NCBI GenBank assembly: GCA_002682825.1
Contig: NOKP01000023.1
Coordinates: 620,001-684,000, forward strand
Direction: 5' to 3'
Source: Neonectria sp. B-13
Lineage: Eukaryota; Ascomycota; Sordariomycetes; Hypocreales; Nectriaceae
Length of the DNA: 64,000 nucleotides
This document shows positions 6,037 through 57,208 of this stretch, one piece after another. The notes under the pieces were generated by a model. It made no database searches and was not told where the DNA came from. It worked only from the letters and a program-made list of their open reading frames with translations. The translations under genes and the position numbers were made by a program. Positions within the stretch are counted from its first letter, which is position 1. The number at the start of each line of letters is the position of its first letter.

Positions 6037-7305
6037 ATGCCTTACAATACGCGCCGAAAATCGCTCTCCTTGCCCAGTCTGGGCATCCACGTCCCCATGA
6101 CACATGCGGCTCGTGATGCCGCTCGTGCTGCCGCTGCTGCCTCCAAGGGTTCATCACGCACATCCCCCTCCGCTTCAGCCTCATTGTCGCCACCCACGTC
6201 TCGCCCCGAGTCCGCCGATGCCCCTCCTAGCAAACGACGAAAGCGAGCACATACCGACGACTCCCTCGTCGAGCAGACGCCGCCCCCGTCACCCCCCGCA
6301 GACTCGTCCATGACTGATGCCGACTATTCCCCTAAAATTGACCTCGACGGCATAAACGACGACATTGTCGAGGCTGTCGTTGTCCAACTGCAGTCAACCG
6401 CCAACCGCCCTCACCTCGTCAAGGAGTTGGCCACTGTCCTTGCCCAGCGCCTGACCTCTGTTCAACAGTAAGTTTGCGCCCCTCTACCCCCCCTCCCCCA
6501 ACCCGTTGGCCTTGCGTGCGCTGACATCACCCTTTCCAGCTCGGCAAACCCCTGTGCCATCATCTCCTCCCGCTTGGCCTCATATCTAAAGCGTGCTTGC
6601 TGGAGCGCTTTGGCCCCCTGCCCCCTTGCCAAGGAGCTTGAGGCTGTCCACCCTCGGCGAACCTACTACTTCCTCACCACTTGTTCTCGTCAGCCCCTCC
6701 TGGACTCGAGCTCTATTCTACCCAGTCGCCAGTCCATCGTTACCCCATCTGTATCACTCACCGACGACTCCGGCTCCGACGATGCCGATGCTCGCCGTCG
6801 CGAGCTCAGCCCGTCGCCTGAAGTCGACCTTTCGCCTCATCAATTCGAGGACGTGGACGATGACTTCGCCATGCCTGCTACCCCCATTGGCTCTTTCCAC
6901 TCCCATCAACGCCACATACCTTCCCGTCGGGTCAGCCGGCACAATTCGCCTCCTTTAGAGAAAGACGAGCGCGAGTTCACTCAGACTGCCGACGTCTTGC
7001 AAAAGCGCAAGCTTAACGAGGAGACTCCAGTCTCCGAGTCTGCCGACCGCAATTCCAGTTTCGAGTATGGCTACCGCGACGATATCTGGTTCGGTGACCA
7101 CCGCATGGTCGGCCCGACTGCTTTCATCACCAGCCCGTCCATCAAAACTAGTGGCATTTCCAGTGGACTCTCCAACGTCATGTCAAGCGCACGAAAAGAG
7201 GACGAGGCAGAAAGCTGGCTGAAGTTGAGCAAGCTCCTGGAATGGGACAAGGGTGCCGAGAGCATTGAGATTGACGAACTCGACGGCCTGCTAGACGCAT
7301 GCTAA
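6037..7305 (+). CDS. Gds1-type winged-helix domain protein
   Basis: Two exons, 6037-6467 and 6540-7305, joined over a 72-bp intron (GTAAGT...CAG, phase 2), give 398 residues. The N-terminus is a basic, Ala/Ser-rich tail starting MPYNTRRKS. The conserved block begins at about residue 105 (KIDLDGINDDIVEAVVVQLQ) and runs across the splice junction through ANPCAIISSRLASYLKR and CPLAKELEAVHPRRTYYFLTT; this is the winged-helix domain of yeast Gds1-like proteins. The rest is acidic and Ser/Pro-rich, presumably disordered. Yeast GDS1 is a multicopy suppressor linked to nuclear control of mitochondrial function; here a nuclear DNA-binding or regulatory role is inferred. The start was chosen because the family begins MPYNTRRKS; the open frame upstream is only pyrimidine-rich leader. 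Confidence 0.82.
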
Positions 7306-11629: not shown

Positions 11630-11711
11630 GACGCAGTGGCAGAGTGGTCTAATGCGTATGACTAGAAATCATATCTCCTCGGAGGCGTCTGTTCGAATCA
11701 GGCCTGCGTCG
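11630..11711 (+). tRNA. tRNA-Ser (anticodon AGA)
   Basis: An 82-nt intronless class II tRNA. The acceptor stem pairs GACGCAG (11630-11636) with CTGCGTC (11704-11710), followed by discriminator G. The anticodon stem TATGA/TCATA encloses the loop CTAGAAA with anticodon AGA. The long variable arm CTCC-TCG-GGAG is diagnostic of serine. The T arm is GTCTG-TTCGAAT-CAGGC. A run of five T residues follows about 10 nt downstream and should terminate Pol III. It reads UCU serine codons (and UCC through inosine). Confidence 0.95.
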
Positions 11712-33030: not shown

Positions 33031-34950
33031 CTAGACTAATGTAATAATCCTCGTAGCTCCCCTACTACCCTTGCACACCTCTCCCTTCATCAGCTCATGA
33101 ACATAACAATCACCAACAAGCACATATTGCGAAGAGCCACTTTGCGGCCGGAGCACAAACGGAACCGCTCCTCCGGCGAAGAAAGCAACCTCATCACCAA
33201 CCTCCATCTCTGCCGCGCCCATGCCGATATAGCCCTTCTTCGTCGTAAAGAATTTGCGGAAGAGGTTGCCCGCATGGAGAATACTATCTCGGTACTCGCT
33301 GCCCTGCCCCCTAGCGAAGTTGTGACGCCCCTGGAGTTGGCCGAAGACGTTGTCCTTGCCATCGTTGGCATTGGGACCGGAATCATCCATCATCACGTCT
33401 CGCCTCCAGGCCTCCATTACAAGTGGATCGATGTCAGGCGGTTTCGGTCGTTGACATGGATCATACCTCCGAAGATTAACTTGAGCCTCAAGTTTCGCCC
33501 GGCCTTTTGCGGGACGTATGTATGCTTCGAATTCATTCCCTAGGGACGCTGGGGCATTGCTATTAACAAGGCGCTTGTGGTCCAAATCTGATATGAGGGT
33601 TCGCCAGAATGCCTCAAGGTATGTTTGGCCTCCTGGATAGTTCTTTGTCGAAGATGTGAGCCGCTTATACTCATTGCGAGCCCAACAATATCGCTCCATC
33701 CTGGCCGTGATGAATGTCCTGCGTAATGTGTCTGTCACATGGACTACCTCGTCATGTAGCTTGCCCGAGAGTCTCAGAGACCCAGGGGTCGAGGTGTCTG
33801 GCAAGATTTGTGGTCTCAGTCCTTTTGAAACATTGAAACGATGGCATTGGGAGACCGGGATCTGAGACATCGGAACGCTCCAGTCCGGGACCCAGGACGG
33901 AATATCTGGACTTTTTCTTATGCCCGCATGGCCGAGTACTTCTATGCCGTAATAAGACAGCAAATGCCGTGCCGTTTCCGTGTATATTTCGGCCATAGTC
34001 TTCTCGTAGTCCAAGGTGATCTTGGCATCCCGGCACAGAGAGGCGAGTGCAAACACGCGATCTTTGGGGTCACTGCAGTCGAGGTCGCGAGAACATTGTA
34101 GGAGCCTGAACAATGACATCGGGCTCTTTTGGTATTCCACTCTCATCCGGGCCATGAGGCCCATCGCCCCGACCTGCTTTTCCGAATTGGGTTGGATTGA
34201 AGTATACTGCATTAACTCAGCTTGCTCCATCGTGATGCTCAAATTCGTGAAAGTGTCCCAATCTATCTCCACAGCCCCGCACATCATGATCATATCTGAA
34301 TTCAGAAGAGACTCCTGGACGATCCACATTCGGGTGTACCATGATCTACCAAGAAAGTCTCGCAAATATTCCCAGGTAGGGTCAGTTGTGTCTGGAACAT
34401 TGTGCTTGGCGTATGCAACGGAGACTGCGACGGTATTGAGACTCTCGTGGCGCTCTTCCCCAGCCAGAATGAGCTTGTTGGCCAACTCAATCCCTCGGCT
34501 GACGTTATGGGTGTTCTCTCCAACATATGTGATGACGCGGCGGGCCGATCGATAGATCTCCGCCATCAGCTGGACCTGCTTGCTCTTCTCGGCGTTATCC
34601 CCTTGGTTGATGCAAACGCCGTCTGCCCATACGTAGCGAGGGCCATCCTCTGTTTTGGAATGACGGATGGCCCGCAAAGCATTGTAAAGCGATGCTGTGA
34701 TCTTCAAAGTCCCGCCACCTTTTACAGAGAGGGCATGAGACATCTCAGAAACCCCCCAAGTATAGGATATGGCCTCGTATGGCACGCAGCTTCCAAGTGT
34801 TGTCTCGAAAAGTTCAGCAAAAAGGATCCCGGAGTCGCCTCCCGAGAGACGCAAGATTCGAATGGCTTTCGGCCCCTGGAGGGTCGTGTATTGATATAGC
34901 AACGGGGCATCCATGGCTTCAGCGCTAGGTCCTGCTCGTGAACCACTCAT
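33031..34950 (-). CDS. HET-domain protein (heterokaryon-incompatibility-like)
   Basis: A single-exon protein of 639 residues from the ATG at 34950 (MSGSRAGPS); the frame is open further upstream but has no ATG. The HET domain covers about residues 25-230: ILRLSGGDSG, the signature YEAISYTWG, LYNALRAIR, YVWADGVCINQGD, KSKQVQLMAEIYRSARRVITYVG and the WTRMWIVQE-like block (WYTRMWIVQESLL). HET domains trigger cell death after fusion of unlike hyphae when activated by a partner. The long C-terminal half has the usual end of the subfamily, a glycine-rich VGDEVAFFAGG and LVGDCYVHELMKGEV region that in such proteins closes the chain. No NACHT or repeat domain is present. Confidence 0.9.
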   Translation of the reverse strand: MSGSRAGPSAEAMDAPLLYQYTTLQGPKAIRILRLSGGDSGILFAELFETTLGSCVPYEAISYTWGVSEMSHALSVKGGGTLKITASLYNALRAIRHSKTEDGPRYVWADGVCINQGDNAEKSKQVQLMAEIYRSARRVITYVGENTHNVSRGIELANKLILAGEERHESLNTVAVSVAYAKHNVPDTTDPTWEYLRDFLGRSWYTRMWIVQESLLNSDMIMMCGAVEIDWDTFTNLSITMEQAELMQYTSIQPNSEKQVGAMGLMARMRVEYQKSPMSLFRLLQCSRDLDCSDPKDRVFALASLCRDAKITLDYEKTMAEIYTETARHLLSYYGIEVLGHAGIRKSPDIPSWVPDWSVPMSQIPVSQCHRFNVSKGLRPQILPDTSTPGSLRLSGKLHDEVVHVTDTLRRTFITARMERYCWARNEYKRLTSSTKNYPGGQTYLEAFWRTLISDLDHKRLVNSNAPASLGNEFEAYIRPAKGRAKLEAQVNLRRYDPCQRPKPPDIDPLVMEAWRRDVMMDDSGPNANDGKDNVFGQLQGRHNFARGQGSEYRDSILHAGNLFRKFFTTKKGYIGMGAAEMEVGDEVAFFAGGAVPFVLRPQSGSSQYVLVGDCYVHELMKGEVCKGSRGATRIITLV

Positions 34951-35364
34951 CTGCAGCGGTAAGATGCGAAGCGCAGGGACTCGGTCAAGGCTATCGATGG
35001 GAGTAAAAGTAGGCACAGGAATGGTAAGACAGAAACGGGCTTGATGAGAGAAGATGCAGTGAGATAAACTGGAATCACTCGAAGTCCTTGATATCTGCTG
35101 TTGGGCCGGGCTGGGTCTTGCATTCAGGCCTTGCTTCCATCAGGCTCCGGGCGGGGTTTGATCATTGGCGCCCGCTCGTATAATGCTCATGCAGCTTTAA
35201 TCGCGCCACTTTGATAATCAGGCTGGCGGCAATAGCTGGATAGGGAGCTGACGAGTCAAGTTTGAGAGCACAGAGACAGCCTGCAGCATGTTGTTGGTTG
35301 CGCAGGTTCTTGGCGCTGCCTTGCATCCACTGCGGCCCTCCTTTCACGCTTGCAGCAATCATTT
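34951..35364. other. Intergenic upstream of the HET gene
   Basis: About 410 bp that should contain the HET promoter. No gene seen. Base composition drops toward AT from here rightward. Confidence 0.45.
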
Positions 35365-40329: not shown

Positions 40330-40457
40330 GCGGGTTTAGCTCAGTTGGGGTACGTTACAATAGTATTTCCCCACCTCGAACAAACAACTAACCTTCACTG
40401 GCAGAGAGCGTCAGACTGAAGATCTGAAGGTCATGTGTTCGATCCACATAAACCGCA
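40330..40457 (+). tRNA. tRNA-Phe (anticodon GAA) interrupted in the D-loop by a 55-bp GT-AG element
   Basis: Bases 40330-40349 and 40405-40457 together form an exact 73-nt tRNA-Phe. The acceptor is GCGGGTT with AAACCGC (one G-A mismatch at pair 5-68), discriminator A. The D stem is GCTC/GAGC, the anticodon stem TCAGA/TCTGA encloses CTGAAGA with anticodon GAA, and the T arm is ATGTG-TTCGATC-CACAT. The A box TAGCTCAGTTGG and B box GTTCGATCC are intact, and a T7 run follows within about 15 nt. Between the last D-loop G and the A that precedes GAGC lie 55 bases that start GTACGT, contain ACTAAC 17 nt before the end and finish in CAG. The anticodon loop has no canonical 37/38 intron. Confidence 0.88.
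40350..40404 (+). other. 55-bp spliceosomal-type intron or intron-like insertion in tRNA-Phe
   Basis: Starts GTACGT, carries the fungal branch-site consensus CTAAC 13-17 nt before the 3' end and ends GGCAG. Length and signals match the ordinary pre-mRNA introns in this window (for example CDK1 intron 2, also GTACGT, 60 bp). It lacks the bulge-helix-bulge context and position needed by tRNA splicing endonuclease. Confidence 0.8.
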
Positions 40458-43400
40458 AGACATTTCTTTTTTTGTCCTTGACATTTTGCCATTCCCATTT
40501 CGGGGACTGAATCCATTCTCACGGATGCATTTTTCGTGATTCCTCTTTGTGGGCGAGACATTGCTCGTGATCTCACTATGCTGCCCGGAAGATATCAACA
40601 TGGATGGATTATTCGTCAACGCCCACGAAATAACATTGACAACGGACCAAGTAACAGAGCCAGATCCCGAGGGCCTCCCTTAAGGTCTGTATATTCATAT
40701 CGCTTCAGGCGTCAGGATCACTGTCTCTTGATACTTGCGTTGGGCTCATTGTGCCGAGATTGCTCAAATATAGGAGAACTCCTCCAACCCAAAATCTATG
40801 CCGACATGCGCAACACTCAGAATCATCAGAGAGAAGCCAAATAAAACCTTGAACGAGCAGAGTAAGTTACCAGTATTGCACAATGTAAATATGTAACAAC
40901 TGATTGAGCTAAGGGTTGTCAAACTGAAGCCACGATACCGACCTTCTTCTTAAGTCTGGTTCAAAGCTCATCTGAGAAATCTCCCTCACATCGTAACTTA
41001 TAAACTTGATTTTCCGTAGCGTGGGAAACAGAGTCTTGTCGCTGTTACGAACGCTCTTCTCTTTGCCCCGTCGATGTCACTCTAAACCACATGATGGTCA
41101 GTACTTGGCGGCTGTAGCAACCGCTTACCAATCGAAAATGACCGGATACTGAAGTTCGGAAGTCCTAAAATGTCCGAGCCGGCTACAATGTCGATGGGAT
41201 TGTGTTAGGGCAAACAGGAAGCAAAGTCGATTTCATCACACATCCCAGTTAACGTTATCCCGTTCAAGAACACTCCAGTGCCCCACTAGTGGTCAATGTG
41301 AACAAACGAGACTCGATTCCACACCATCTCAAGGTCGTTACTTGAGACAAGCCCCGTCAACTATCGCTGAGCGGTTCCTCATCCTCAGTTTCACCTAAGT
41401 TACCAACTCAGATCTCGCTGGCGGTTACTATAAATATCTGCACAAGGCTTAGCTGCAATCTACTCGGAGGCTTCTCAATCTAACTCAACCATCTCTGCGG
41501 ACCATACTGTCGGCAATGCAATATGCTCTAGAGAACGGGGTCGATCTGCAGTCAAGGATCCAGGATCGAGGATCGAAGATTGTGGATGCGGGCTTCAGGG
41601 GCCGTTGGCTGCGTTTTTGGCCGCGTCTTGTGGAACGGGGCATCTTGCATCTCCGGGATCCTTAGGGCGCGGGCGAGCATACAAATAACCATCAAATAAA
41701 GAAATGCTGATGGTAGCGACTACCCGGTATCCTTGTGCTGATGCTAGCTTCGATAGCCATCGCCATCGTAGACCGATGATCGAAATGAGGGGCGGGGGGA
41801 ATCGGGCTTCGAGTGGAGTTGGCGCAGGCAGAAATATCAAGCCTTGTATCAGACATTGCTTTGTCCTTAGCTAACCCGCACCAACAATGGGAGCGGTGTC
41901 GGAATCTCGATTGTTGCGCGAAGACTGCCACACGGAAGCAGCTTCAGGTTTGTTCTCAACAAATGCGGTAAAGGTGCAGTAGCAGCGGCAGCCAGGCGAT
42001 ATTGTCTCGGCATGTTGACGGCCCCCAACCGGTCCATCTTCACCGAGGCAATGTTCGGTCACCGTTGGTCCGCTATCCCCGGGGCGGGTAACGGGACGTG
42101 GTATGTTTGCTTGTTGGTTGGGCCTGGTTGCTGGCAACGAGGTTTCGGGTTGGCAGAGCGTAGCTCTCGTCTCACATAAACACAGACGTGGGCGATAGAA
42201 TGCCGTCGGTGTTGTTACATAGCATAGTCTAATAGTCCAAGGCATTGTCTTGGACTCGGCGAGGTTGCCGAGTCGGGAGAGCCGGAGGGACGGAGGGACG
42301 GATGACTGCAGAAACTCAACCTCCCGCTTGGCGGCCCAACTATCATGTCACACGGGTCGAACACAGCCATTGCCAAAGGTAATTAGAGGCCACGCAGGTC
42401 ACGCAGGACACGCAGGCCACGCCACGCAAGGAGAAGAGAATCAAAGGCGTCAGTCAGATCATCTGTGCCGTGACGTCGAGGACCCACGCCATTCCCCAGA
42501 CCGGTGAGGAAGGGTCTGGGCCTGAGCAAGTCCACGAGGCCGGGCTGAGGAACGGTCAGCAAGGACTCTGGACCGGTTGGGGCCAGAGCAAAAGGGCCAG
42601 GATAGGGCGTGTTGGGTCGGATTGCGAAAATGTTGGATTTTCAGTGCATTGGCATCGCCTGGGGGAAGAAAAAGGACGTCGGCAGCTGCTGCGCCGCCTC
42701 GGGTTTCATCAGGCATCCCCGGTCCTGCAGAGGTGATCTGGCGCAGGTTGCCCTGATGCTTGCCCTGATGCTTGCCCACCAGTATTCGTGCTTGGTACCG
42801 GTCAAGAGCCGGTGACAATTCGATTGTCTGCATCTGAGCCCAAGCGAAAGCAGGCTGATGCGGGTTCCCGATCGGTGCAACTCTCCTGATCTCGTCTCTC
42901 CTGGCTGTGTGTTTGTGTGTGTCAGGCTGATGAGAGCGCCCCTCGGGTGCAGCATGTATGAGATCGCAACGTGCCTGGTTTTCGTTGTCGCCTCGCATCG
43001 AACAGCGCATACAGCACTGGCGATGACGTGAACCCAGCTGCCTGTGTGCGTGCCTCCTACCTGCGTGCCTGCCTGCATGTATTGATGCCCTGCAGCTTTC
43101 GCGTCGTCTTCGGCTTCGGGGTGGTCGGTTGCTGTAGGTTGCCGTCGAGTCGGAATGGCGGTGTTTGTTCCATTGAGACATTTTCTATGTAAGACACGGC
43201 GGCTTCGGAAGGAAGAATGGCGCGCGTTGAGAAAAAGAGAAATGGAGAGATAGGCAAGTAAAGAGAGACAAACAGTGGTTCATCAATTCTAGAACAAATT
43301 GTGAGATGCGACGACAGCCCTCCCAGACCTGCAGGATCCGACCTATCATCTGAACAGAGACTTCCCTAGGCGTCTATTCGCACCAAAGCAGAACCTAGGG

Positions 43401-54420: not shown

Positions 54421-55229
54421 GATGTAGCTTGGCATGACCAAGCTTGGAGTTGAAACTTGATGGGGGCTTCAAATCAAGGAGCAATGAGGATTGGTAAACA
54501 TTCGGTGGCAGGACGCTTGCAAGCACACGGTAAGGGGAGTTGAGAAGGTGTTCCGTTCTCTTGTTTCCGTTGTCAGGGGCGCAGCACTTTTTGGTCGGAG
54601 AAAGGAGCACCATGATTATACCTTCAGACGGGTCTGGTTGGGAGGAGAATGGGATACAGCGGTGTAGAGATAACGCTCATTCGTTTTCATTATGAGTATT
54701 TTAAATGACTGGATTATGATGACAAACTTGGTCTTGTTGGAGTGAGCCTACAGTATCTTCAGGGGACATCCCAAATTCCCAATGCAGTCGCGCAGACGCG
54801 CAGCCGTGCACGGGCTGCATCTTACAGTGCAGGAGTCAATCCCCAGGTTTGAGTTTTAGGTACATCACGTGGCTGTCCTAGTGGTCGTTTATTTCAACCA
54901 CCATGCGCTGCAATGCTGCTGGGGAAAGAAGGATTCATTTCGACGCCGACATTAGCAGGATCGGATCGCGACAGATCTATTTATACCTGATTTATCGTGT
55001 TTTACTGGCCTCACGTTGACGTGGATCTCTTTTTTTGCGGCTGAACTAGGCCAACAAAGCGAGCTCCGCCCAAATGGGCAAGATGTCACCGTGACCACCA
55101 CTGGCTGAAACATAGGCGATGAAACAACTTTTGTCTTCTTCCTCTTTCTCAATCCAGAACGCGTCCGCGTCCGCGTCTACGTCTGCTTCTCCGATTGCTG
55201 CTATTAGTTCGGTTTCTTGAGTCGGCGTC
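54421..55229. other. Intergenic upstream of the second HET gene
   Basis: About 800 bp with the 3' UTR of the USP gene and the promoter of the HET gene. Nothing else seen. Confidence 0.5.
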
Positions 55230-57208
55230 ATGAGACTCCTCAACACCAAGACTCTGGAGCTGGAGGATGCGGGGAACGAGCCGGGGAACTACGCCATCTT
55301 GTCACACACGTGGGGCCAGGACGAGGTGCTGTATGACGATGTGCGCAACCCGGAGCGGCTGCAGGAGGTCCGGTGGAAGAACTCGACGGGGTATCGAAAG
55401 GTGGCGCGGACTTGCGAGGCGGCGTTGAAGCAGGGCTTCTCGCACGTGTGGATTGACACATGCTGCATCGACAAGTCGAGTAGCGCTGAGCTGTCTGAGG
55501 CCATCAATTCCATGTTTGGGTGGTACAGGGATGCCACCGCATGCTATGCGTACCTGTCCGACGTGACGACCCTCCCCGACGGCACGCCAGACAACTTCGA
55601 GTCCAGCCGCTGGTTCAGGCGAGGATGGACGCTGCAGGAGCTTCTCGCCCCCGACGACGTCGAGTTCTTCAGCCGGGACTGGGTGTCGCTGGGCACGCGG
55701 GGCAGCCTCTCGGCGCGCATCAGCCGCATCACTGGCATCAGCGAGGCTTTACTGAGCGGACGAGACTCGTCAAGACGCAGGCGGCACAACGTATCTCTAC
55801 TACTGCACCAGGAGAACGTTGCCACGCGGATGGCCTGGGCGGCGCACCGGGAGACGAGCCGCCGCGAAGACATGGCGTACTCCCTGATGGGCATCTTCGG
55901 CGTCAACATGCCGGTGCTCTACGGTGAAGGGGACAAGGCCTTCCTGCGGCTTCAGGAGGAGATGCTCAAGACGACACAGGACCAGTCCATGCTCATCTGG
56001 AGAACGCCGCTGGATGCGGGCGGGTCGGAGTCGCTGCGCCGGATGCACTACTTTGCCGACTCGCCAAAACACTTCAACCTACGGACGTTTGGGGGCCAGG
56101 AGGATCCAGCGCGGTTCGGGATGATGATGACGGCGCGGGGCCTGGAGGTGAGCGTCTGGAAGTGCCCGTGTCGAATAACGTACTCGACCCGAACTGGCGG
56201 GACCGAGAAGGGCGAGGAGGAGCGACAATGGTTGGCTGTTCTCGACTGCAGCCTGTCGTCGGATACGTTGGCGCGGGCAGCGATTCTCCTCGAGGCCAGT
56301 GCCAGTGGAGGCGTCGCGTTCCGACGATTGCACCCGAACGTTATAATGATTATCGAGCCCAAGCGGTCAGGGTTCCTCATGGTCGATGGCGAAATGCCTG
56401 GGTATCGCAACAGTGAGTAACCTATTGTTGTCAGGAGCAGGTGGTTCCTGGATACGGTGCTGGACTTGTGAGTCAAAGCTGATGCGACAGGATACAAACA
56501 GAAATTCAGTCGGTCGAATATGATCCTGGGGATCTAAACATGGAGACGATTATGTTGGAGAGCGCGCCAGATGGACCAGGAGCACGAGGGGTGTTCCCGT
56601 TCAAGCTCAGCCTGCCGCCGAAGAACAGCAGCATTCAGCAGCGGGCAGCGTACATGGGGTCACGGCGATACATCAGCTCGGAGCACATATCATTCATGTC
56701 GATAGACAATCCGATTTACGGGGTGGTGTTTCTCAGCGCCGGGCCGGGACGGGAGTTTATGATATGGTGGGGGCTCGTGGAGCTGGGGACGGCCATGTCG
56801 TTGATGCACGACGACCGCGGGGCGCCGCGGCTCTGGGACAACAGCATCCCGGTGTGCTTCGTGCAGGCGTGGGCGAACCTGACAGGCTCGGCCGACTTCC
56901 ACCCGGAGCTGGCGGGCCAGCTGGCGGGGGACATCTTGAACGAGGAGATCCGGCTGCCGTGGCTGAAAGGGTCGGCGCCCAAGGCGGCGGACGCGGAGGA
57001 CGGCGGGCTGGACCTGGGCGGCGGCGGCGGCGGTGGCGCGCGGCCGATGATCTCGAGCGCGGTAATAGGGTTGTTCATGCAGCGGGCGCGGCCGGCGGTT
57101 GAGAGCGTGTGCGCCGGGGTCAAGGTGCGGGCGACGATGAAGCGGGCCGAGTTTCTGGGGCGGCTTGCGTGCGAGCTGGAAGTGGAGGTGGTGGAAAACG
57201 ACAGGTGA
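55230..57208 (+). CDS. HET-domain protein (HET-E/DEAD-like N-terminal HET)
   Basis: Exons 55230-56412 and 56502-57208 around an 89-bp intron (GTGAGT...CAG, phase 1) give 629 residues. The N-terminus starts directly with the HET domain: MRLLNTKTLELED, YAILSHTWG, the Lys/Cys-rich FSHVWIDTCCIDKSS, AINSMFGWYRDATACYAYLSDV, RGWTLQELLAPDDVEFFSRDW and the end ATRMAWAAHRETSRREDMAYSLMGIFGVNMPVLYGEG. This arrangement, with the family's AYSLMGIFxxxMPxLYGEG close, is typical of HET proteins of the vegetative-incompatibility type. The C-terminal part lacks NACHT, ankyrin or WD repeats and contains a Gly run (LDLGGGGGGG) before a helix. It differs in class from the HET gene at 33-35 kb. The splice site was set because it is the only one joining both frames without a stop. 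Confidence 0.87.

Follow-up and report, generated by a model that had tools for sequence, protein, structure and literature searches.

The window—a 64,000-nucleotide stretch of contig NOKP01000023.1 (hereafter C43) of Neonectria sp. B-13—contains a tRNA-Phe gene that is interrupted within its D-loop (Table 1). Joining 40330-40349 to 40405-40457 gives a 73-nt tRNA-Phe(GAA), as had been proposed from the sequence alone; the coordinates proved exact, and ARAGORN accepted the product, with CCA added, as a cloverleaf carrying the GAA anticodon. The insert (40350-40404) separates G20 from A21, i.e., it occupies D-loop position 20/21. Deleting 40349-40403 leads to an identical product, and one of these two possible boundary registers is the GT-AG register. 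The GTACGT, CTAAC and CAG elements attributed to the insert are all present, as are the downstream T run and the two internal promoter elements, the A box and the B box. The unspliced gene (40330-40457) was called neither by ARAGORN nor by Rfam at the gathering threshold. The sole window tRNA reported by both programs is an ordinary tRNA-Ser(AGA) at 11630-11711.

Table 1. Features of the interrupted tRNA-Phe gene, in window coordinates
Feature	Position	Strand	Remarks
tRNA-Phe exon 1	40330-40349	+	tRNA positions 1-20: acceptor 5' strand, D-stem 5' strand and D-loop through GGG; same in 8/8 copies
A box TAGCTCAGTTGGG	40337-40349	+	Intact; adjoins the intron on its 5' side; identified by its motif
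GT-AG intron, 55 nt	40350-40404	+	tRNA position 20/21; from sequence and comparison of copies
5' splice site GTACGT	40350-40355	+	GTAYGT or GTAAGT in 7/7 distinct introns
Branch-site motif CTAAC	40388-40392	+	Likely branch A at 40391; CTAAC in 7/7 distinct introns
Branch site-to-acceptor segment CTTCACTGG	40393-40401	+	Conserved in family 1 (8/9 columns); complementary to exon 2
3' splice site CAG	40402-40404	+	CAG or TAG in 7/7 distinct introns
tRNA-Phe exon 2	40405-40457	+	tRNA positions 21-73
Anticodon GAA	40418-40420	+	Without an intron at 37/38
B box core GTTCGATCC	40437-40445	+	Identified by its motif
T7 run, Pol III terminator-like	40467-40473	+	5 to 7 T also 3' of the other 7 copies

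Putative mRNA introns of the window were sought by reading-frame logic in a scan that required GTRNGT, CTRAY and YAG, and that is blind to the frequency of any other signals. The scan gave eight donor-acceptor pairs, built on six donors, all from the plus strand; the minus strand gave none, and two control strands gave 0 and 2. Splicing at one of these candidates (6468-6539) brings together the halves of a GDS1 winged-helix domain, and this is the sole domain-backed intron among the six donors. When the shortest pair per donor is taken, this small, signal-requiring scan yields lengths of 49-78 nt—a candidate set into which the tRNA-Phe introns fit.

We then turn to the assembly as a whole (60.9 Mb, 123 contigs), which was searched with the window gene for further tRNA-Phe copies, as the sequence-only reading had suggested. 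Eight loci on five contigs were recovered: the window gene on C43, three tandem genes on C40 (C40a-c), one gene each on C45 and C42, and two on C56. Every one of them is split at the same site, and an intron at one identical place in all eight genes is far beyond chance. The exon letters (20 nt + 53 nt, 73 in total) are identical across the eight copies, and the position of the insert in the D-loop rather than at 37/38, first described for the window gene, applies to each of them. The G-A pair at 5-68, suspected earlier to be a family norm, was found in 8/8 copies and is normal for tRNA-Phe here. The two C56 genes are identical over 3149 bases in inverted orientation, leaving seven distinct introns among the eight genes; the alignment of copies took in seven. 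These two genes (C56:226368-226516 and 230760-230908) lie ~4 kb apart, and the perfect inverted duplicate represents either a recent palindrome or an assembly duplicate. The three tandem genes at C40:696893-697459 are spaced ~215 bases apart, with identical exons and intron cores of 0.58-0.67 identity. A splice-signal pattern ending in AGAGAGC occurred at 12 places genome-wide (controls, 0 and 1), eight of which are the tRNA-Phe genes; at the other four, no tRNA was seen by eye in 240 nt each. An exact-pattern search of virus and prokaryote contig sets, which are uninformative on fungi, returned no matches.

The seven distinct introns measure 53-55 nt, and none contains a TTTT run. All donors are of the GTRNGT type (GTATGT in four introns, GTAAGT in two and GTACGT in one), every intron contains a CTAAC whose second A precedes the intron end by 11-13 nt, and all acceptors are YAG (CAG in five, TAG in two)—a composition that fits the earlier description of the insert as spliceosomal-type. 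Two intron families could be distinguished, with C43, C40a-c and C45 in family 1 and C42 and C56 in family 2. Core identity was 0.51-0.91 inside the families and 0.42-0.53 between them, compared with 0.47-0.51 for shuffled sequence. The cores of two family 1 pairs (C43/C40c and C40b/C45) are near the shuffled level, and family 1 is therefore held together mostly by a common 3' block, where the stretch from branch site to acceptor is invariant in 8 of 9 columns. Within family 1, invariant columns number 13 of 14 among the signals and 5 of 32 in the core (Fisher p = 1e-6)—a value that overstates the case, since the copies share ancestry (two families, with an inverted duplicate on C56) and the signals do not amount to eight independent observations. 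Introns that drift except at their splice signals, within invariant exons, display the trace that selection for spliceosomal removal would be expected to leave. In family 1, the segment CTTCACTGR (40393-40401 in the window) is also complementary to exon 2 (ACCUUCA/UGAAGGU and CUGRC/GUCAG), and its near-invariance perhaps exceeds what the splice signals need.

Folding predictions for the precursor point in a further direction. Predicted pairing of the intron to the 5' strand of the anticodon stem has a mean probability of 0.75-0.79 in six of the seven introns and 0.41 in the seventh, compared with 0.07-0.20 for shuffles that keep the signals; in the six strongly pairing introns, which represent both families, the native anticodon stem drops to a probability of 0.00-0.02. 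Shuffles reaching the observed pairing numbered 10/132 for C43, 1/136 for C40a, 28/139 for C40b, 1/125 for C45, 0/139 for C40c, 0/143 for C42 and 4/132 for C56, and the pairing of C43 and C40b is unremarkable by this measure. In C40a, C45, C42 and C56, the 5' splice site is also less accessible in the predicted fold than in shuffles (unpaired probabilities of 0.03-0.15 vs 0.33-0.42). We regard the predicted pairing between intron and anticodon stem, with a possible role in folding, as a suggestive lead.

The nuclear tRNA introns of textbooks lie at position 37/38 and are substrates of the tRNA endonuclease, and the tRNA-Phe of N. crassa carries such an intron. In the present genome, the tRNA_int_endo domain is encoded at two loci, and ARAGORN identified introns in a tRNA-His (19 nt, at position 38) and a tRNA-Leu (in the anticodon loop, placed at 34); judging from these sequences, the usual tRNA-splicing pathway is present beside the split tRNA-Phe genes. 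Canonical introns likewise split tRNA genes whose promoter boxes are intact, but their site and signals differ from those of the tRNA-Phe introns, and nothing is found at 37/38 here. Endonuclease cutting at a site other than the canonical one, a mechanism proposed for Cyanidioschyzon, is the alternative that survives best, and we consider it unlikely. In its favor are the two tRNA_int_endo loci of the same genome and, in a review (PMC4090602), the D-arm introns of nucleomorph tRNAs, excised by an unknown mechanism as confirmed by RT-PCR, and those of C. merolae, which seem to depend decisively on bulge-helix-bulge (BHB) motifs. In the tRNA-Phe introns, however, a BHB with helices of at least 3 is absent from all seven, in both registers and with bulges of 2-4 nt, and relaxing the helices to 2 yields a match in a single intron (C56), close to the background rate, since 6-9% of shuffled introns have one. 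Moreover, the predicted precursor offers no cloverleaf to a distance-measuring enzyme, with a D-stem probability of 0.00 in 7/7 introns (shuffled introns are low too, at 0.08-0.41), and endonuclease cutting leaves the conservation of GTRNGT, CTAAC and YAG unexplained.

Marginally less probable is the notion that the eight genes are dead insertions—pseudogenes or repeats—while the real tRNA-Phe derives from an intronless gene that lies outside the assembly or is too diverged for the searches used. The assembly may be incomplete, and according to a review, D- or T-arm insertions in eukaryotes mostly affect a single member of a large synonymous set, a presumed pseudogene (PMC4090602). Yet four whole-genome searches of the 60.9-Mb assembly turned up no tRNA-Phe gene without the intron. 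Exact matches to the anticodon arm occurred at eight places, all of them intron-bearing tRNA-Phe genes; the 3' half, searched at a tolerance of three mismatches, matched the same eight genes; the uninterrupted 5' 25-mer, at the same tolerance, had no match; and BLAST with the spliced 73-mer, up to an E value of 10, returned 13 pieces, all within the eight genes. Nine further places matching the anticodon arm with one mismatch were rejected as tRNAs by eye and with ARAGORN, a program that also misses genes with D-loop introns. The splitting of all genes, together with identical 73-nt exons, a T run after each copy and splice signals kept constant over diverged cores, makes dead insertions unlikely. 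The idea, raised in the sequence-only reading, that an intron-like element had jumped into one tRNA-Phe copy is disfavored as well, given that all eight genes found carry the intron and an intronless copy was not found.

Transcription by Pol II, with tRNA-Phe spliced within longer host transcripts, would make access of the spliceosome ordinary, and is nevertheless quite improbable: both promoter boxes are present in each copy and a run of T follows within ~20 nt, three of the seven distinct loci have CAA immediately 5' of the gene, and the flanks differ among loci, with some gene-adjacent bases shared by C40a/C45 and C42/C56. An assembly artefact is scarcely credible, as the seven distinct introns occur on five contigs in different flanks, even if the inverted C56 pair may have been duplicated in assembly. 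On general grounds, we also set aside IRE1/HAC1-type splicing and introns of group I or II.

Among the options put forward at the outset, an unconventionally spliced Pol III transcript is strongly favored, with 8/8 genes split, invariant exons and introns that have diverged except at the splice signals; the removal itself is what we infer from this pattern. We assign a probability of roughly 85% to a reading in which the spliceosome removes the D-loop intron from a predicted Pol III precursor; the supply of cytosolic tRNA-Phe would then depend on the machinery that splices mRNA. The A box, B box and T-run terminators of the eight genes resemble, at the level of sequence, those of ordinary Pol III tRNA genes. 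Following transcription by Pol III, the GTRNGT and CTAAC elements would be recognized in U1/U2 style, the intron would leave as a lariat and the 73-nt product would enter normal end processing and aminoacylation; until its excision, the intron may keep the anticodon arm out of its native fold, as the models weakly predict. A broader version of this proposal would have a whole essential tRNA isoacceptor passing from the tRNA endonuclease to the spliceosome—each tRNA-Phe arising by way of a lariat from a precursor made by Pol III, with two unrelated intron families tying up the anticodon stem, the cloverleaf having to wait, and the supply of Phe-tRNA coupled to spliceosome activity. We offer this version tentatively and would lean slightly against it; the donor is buried in four of the seven predicted folds, and not in family 2 alone, which lowers its probability.

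Introns of the mRNA type are a feature of U6 genes in other fungi, and those of S. pombe U6 hold a B box. In the genome of strain B-13, Rfam identified two U6 loci, one uninterrupted on contig C83 and the other, on C1, split and lower-scoring. The latter (C1:5177405-5177497 and upstream, minus strand) is a U6 gene with a 55-nt GTGAGT...CACTAAC...CAG intron, which splits the ACAGAGA box into AC and AGAGA and contains a B-box-like GTTCGAAAC; BLAST with this intron gave one occurrence in the genome. AGAG lies directly 3' of both the U6 and the tRNA-Phe introns. A common origin of the two is no more than an idea, since core similarity over the seven introns gave p values of 0.02 to 0.75, not significant after correction. 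U6 of S. pombe, the known precedent, is a Pol III transcript spliced by the spliceosome, likewise with a short GT-AG intron and a branch site in a Pol III RNA (PMC8917221). The present case differs from U6 in that a tRNA serves as host, every copy found is split and the insertion is in the D-loop.

Other systems offer partial parallels. Ribosomal RNA genes are multi-copy and transcribed by Pol I. Fungal 18S rRNA genes contain spliceosomal introns, as stated in PMC11889510, and likewise have introns of this type in non-coding RNA genes, the host there being an rRNA and here a tRNA. For non-canonical tRNA introns in eukaryotes, PMC4090602 names nucleomorphs and C. merolae, which likewise have introns in the D-arm and elsewhere. 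The tRNA-Phe(GAA) of the Guillardia theta nucleomorph contains two introns according to the same review, but inserts in that nucleomorph span 3-24 nt (PMC4090602), compared with 53-55 nt and spliceosomal signals here. Among the matches listed from the titles and abstract openings of open-licence literature (a scope outside of which subscription papers and preprints fall), there was no earlier report of spliceosomal introns in nuclear tRNA genes.

The way in which tRNA genes are detected is relevant in this context. In tRNAscan-SE 2.0 (PMC8450103), non-canonical introns are sought with BHB models in archaeal mode; with these models restricted to that mode, split tRNA-Phe genes would be expected to escape the program. 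D-loop introns may also explain why tRNA finders would score such a genome as lacking tRNA-Phe—both ARAGORN and Rfam miss the window gene. Of 1967 candidates, 63 were scored with Rfam, giving at least 56 matches, a coverage that leaves room for such introns in other tRNA isotypes.

If spliceosomal removal is correct, the spliceosome would be able to take over the maturation of a tRNA, acting on short transcripts of Pol III other than U6, and translation could be tied to splicing capacity. In addition, the occurrence of two intron families at one site makes intron gain in Pol III genes testable.

Elsewhere in the window, two ORFs encode HET (heterokaryon-incompatibility) domains, one on the minus strand (33031-35139) and one on the plus strand (55221-56420). 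Finally, one protein encoded in the window, a copper P-type ATPase, suggests a likely place within Nectriaceae close to three genera, being 92% identical to that of Neonectria punicea, 85% to that of Ilyonectria robusta and 82% to that of Dactylonectria estremocensis.
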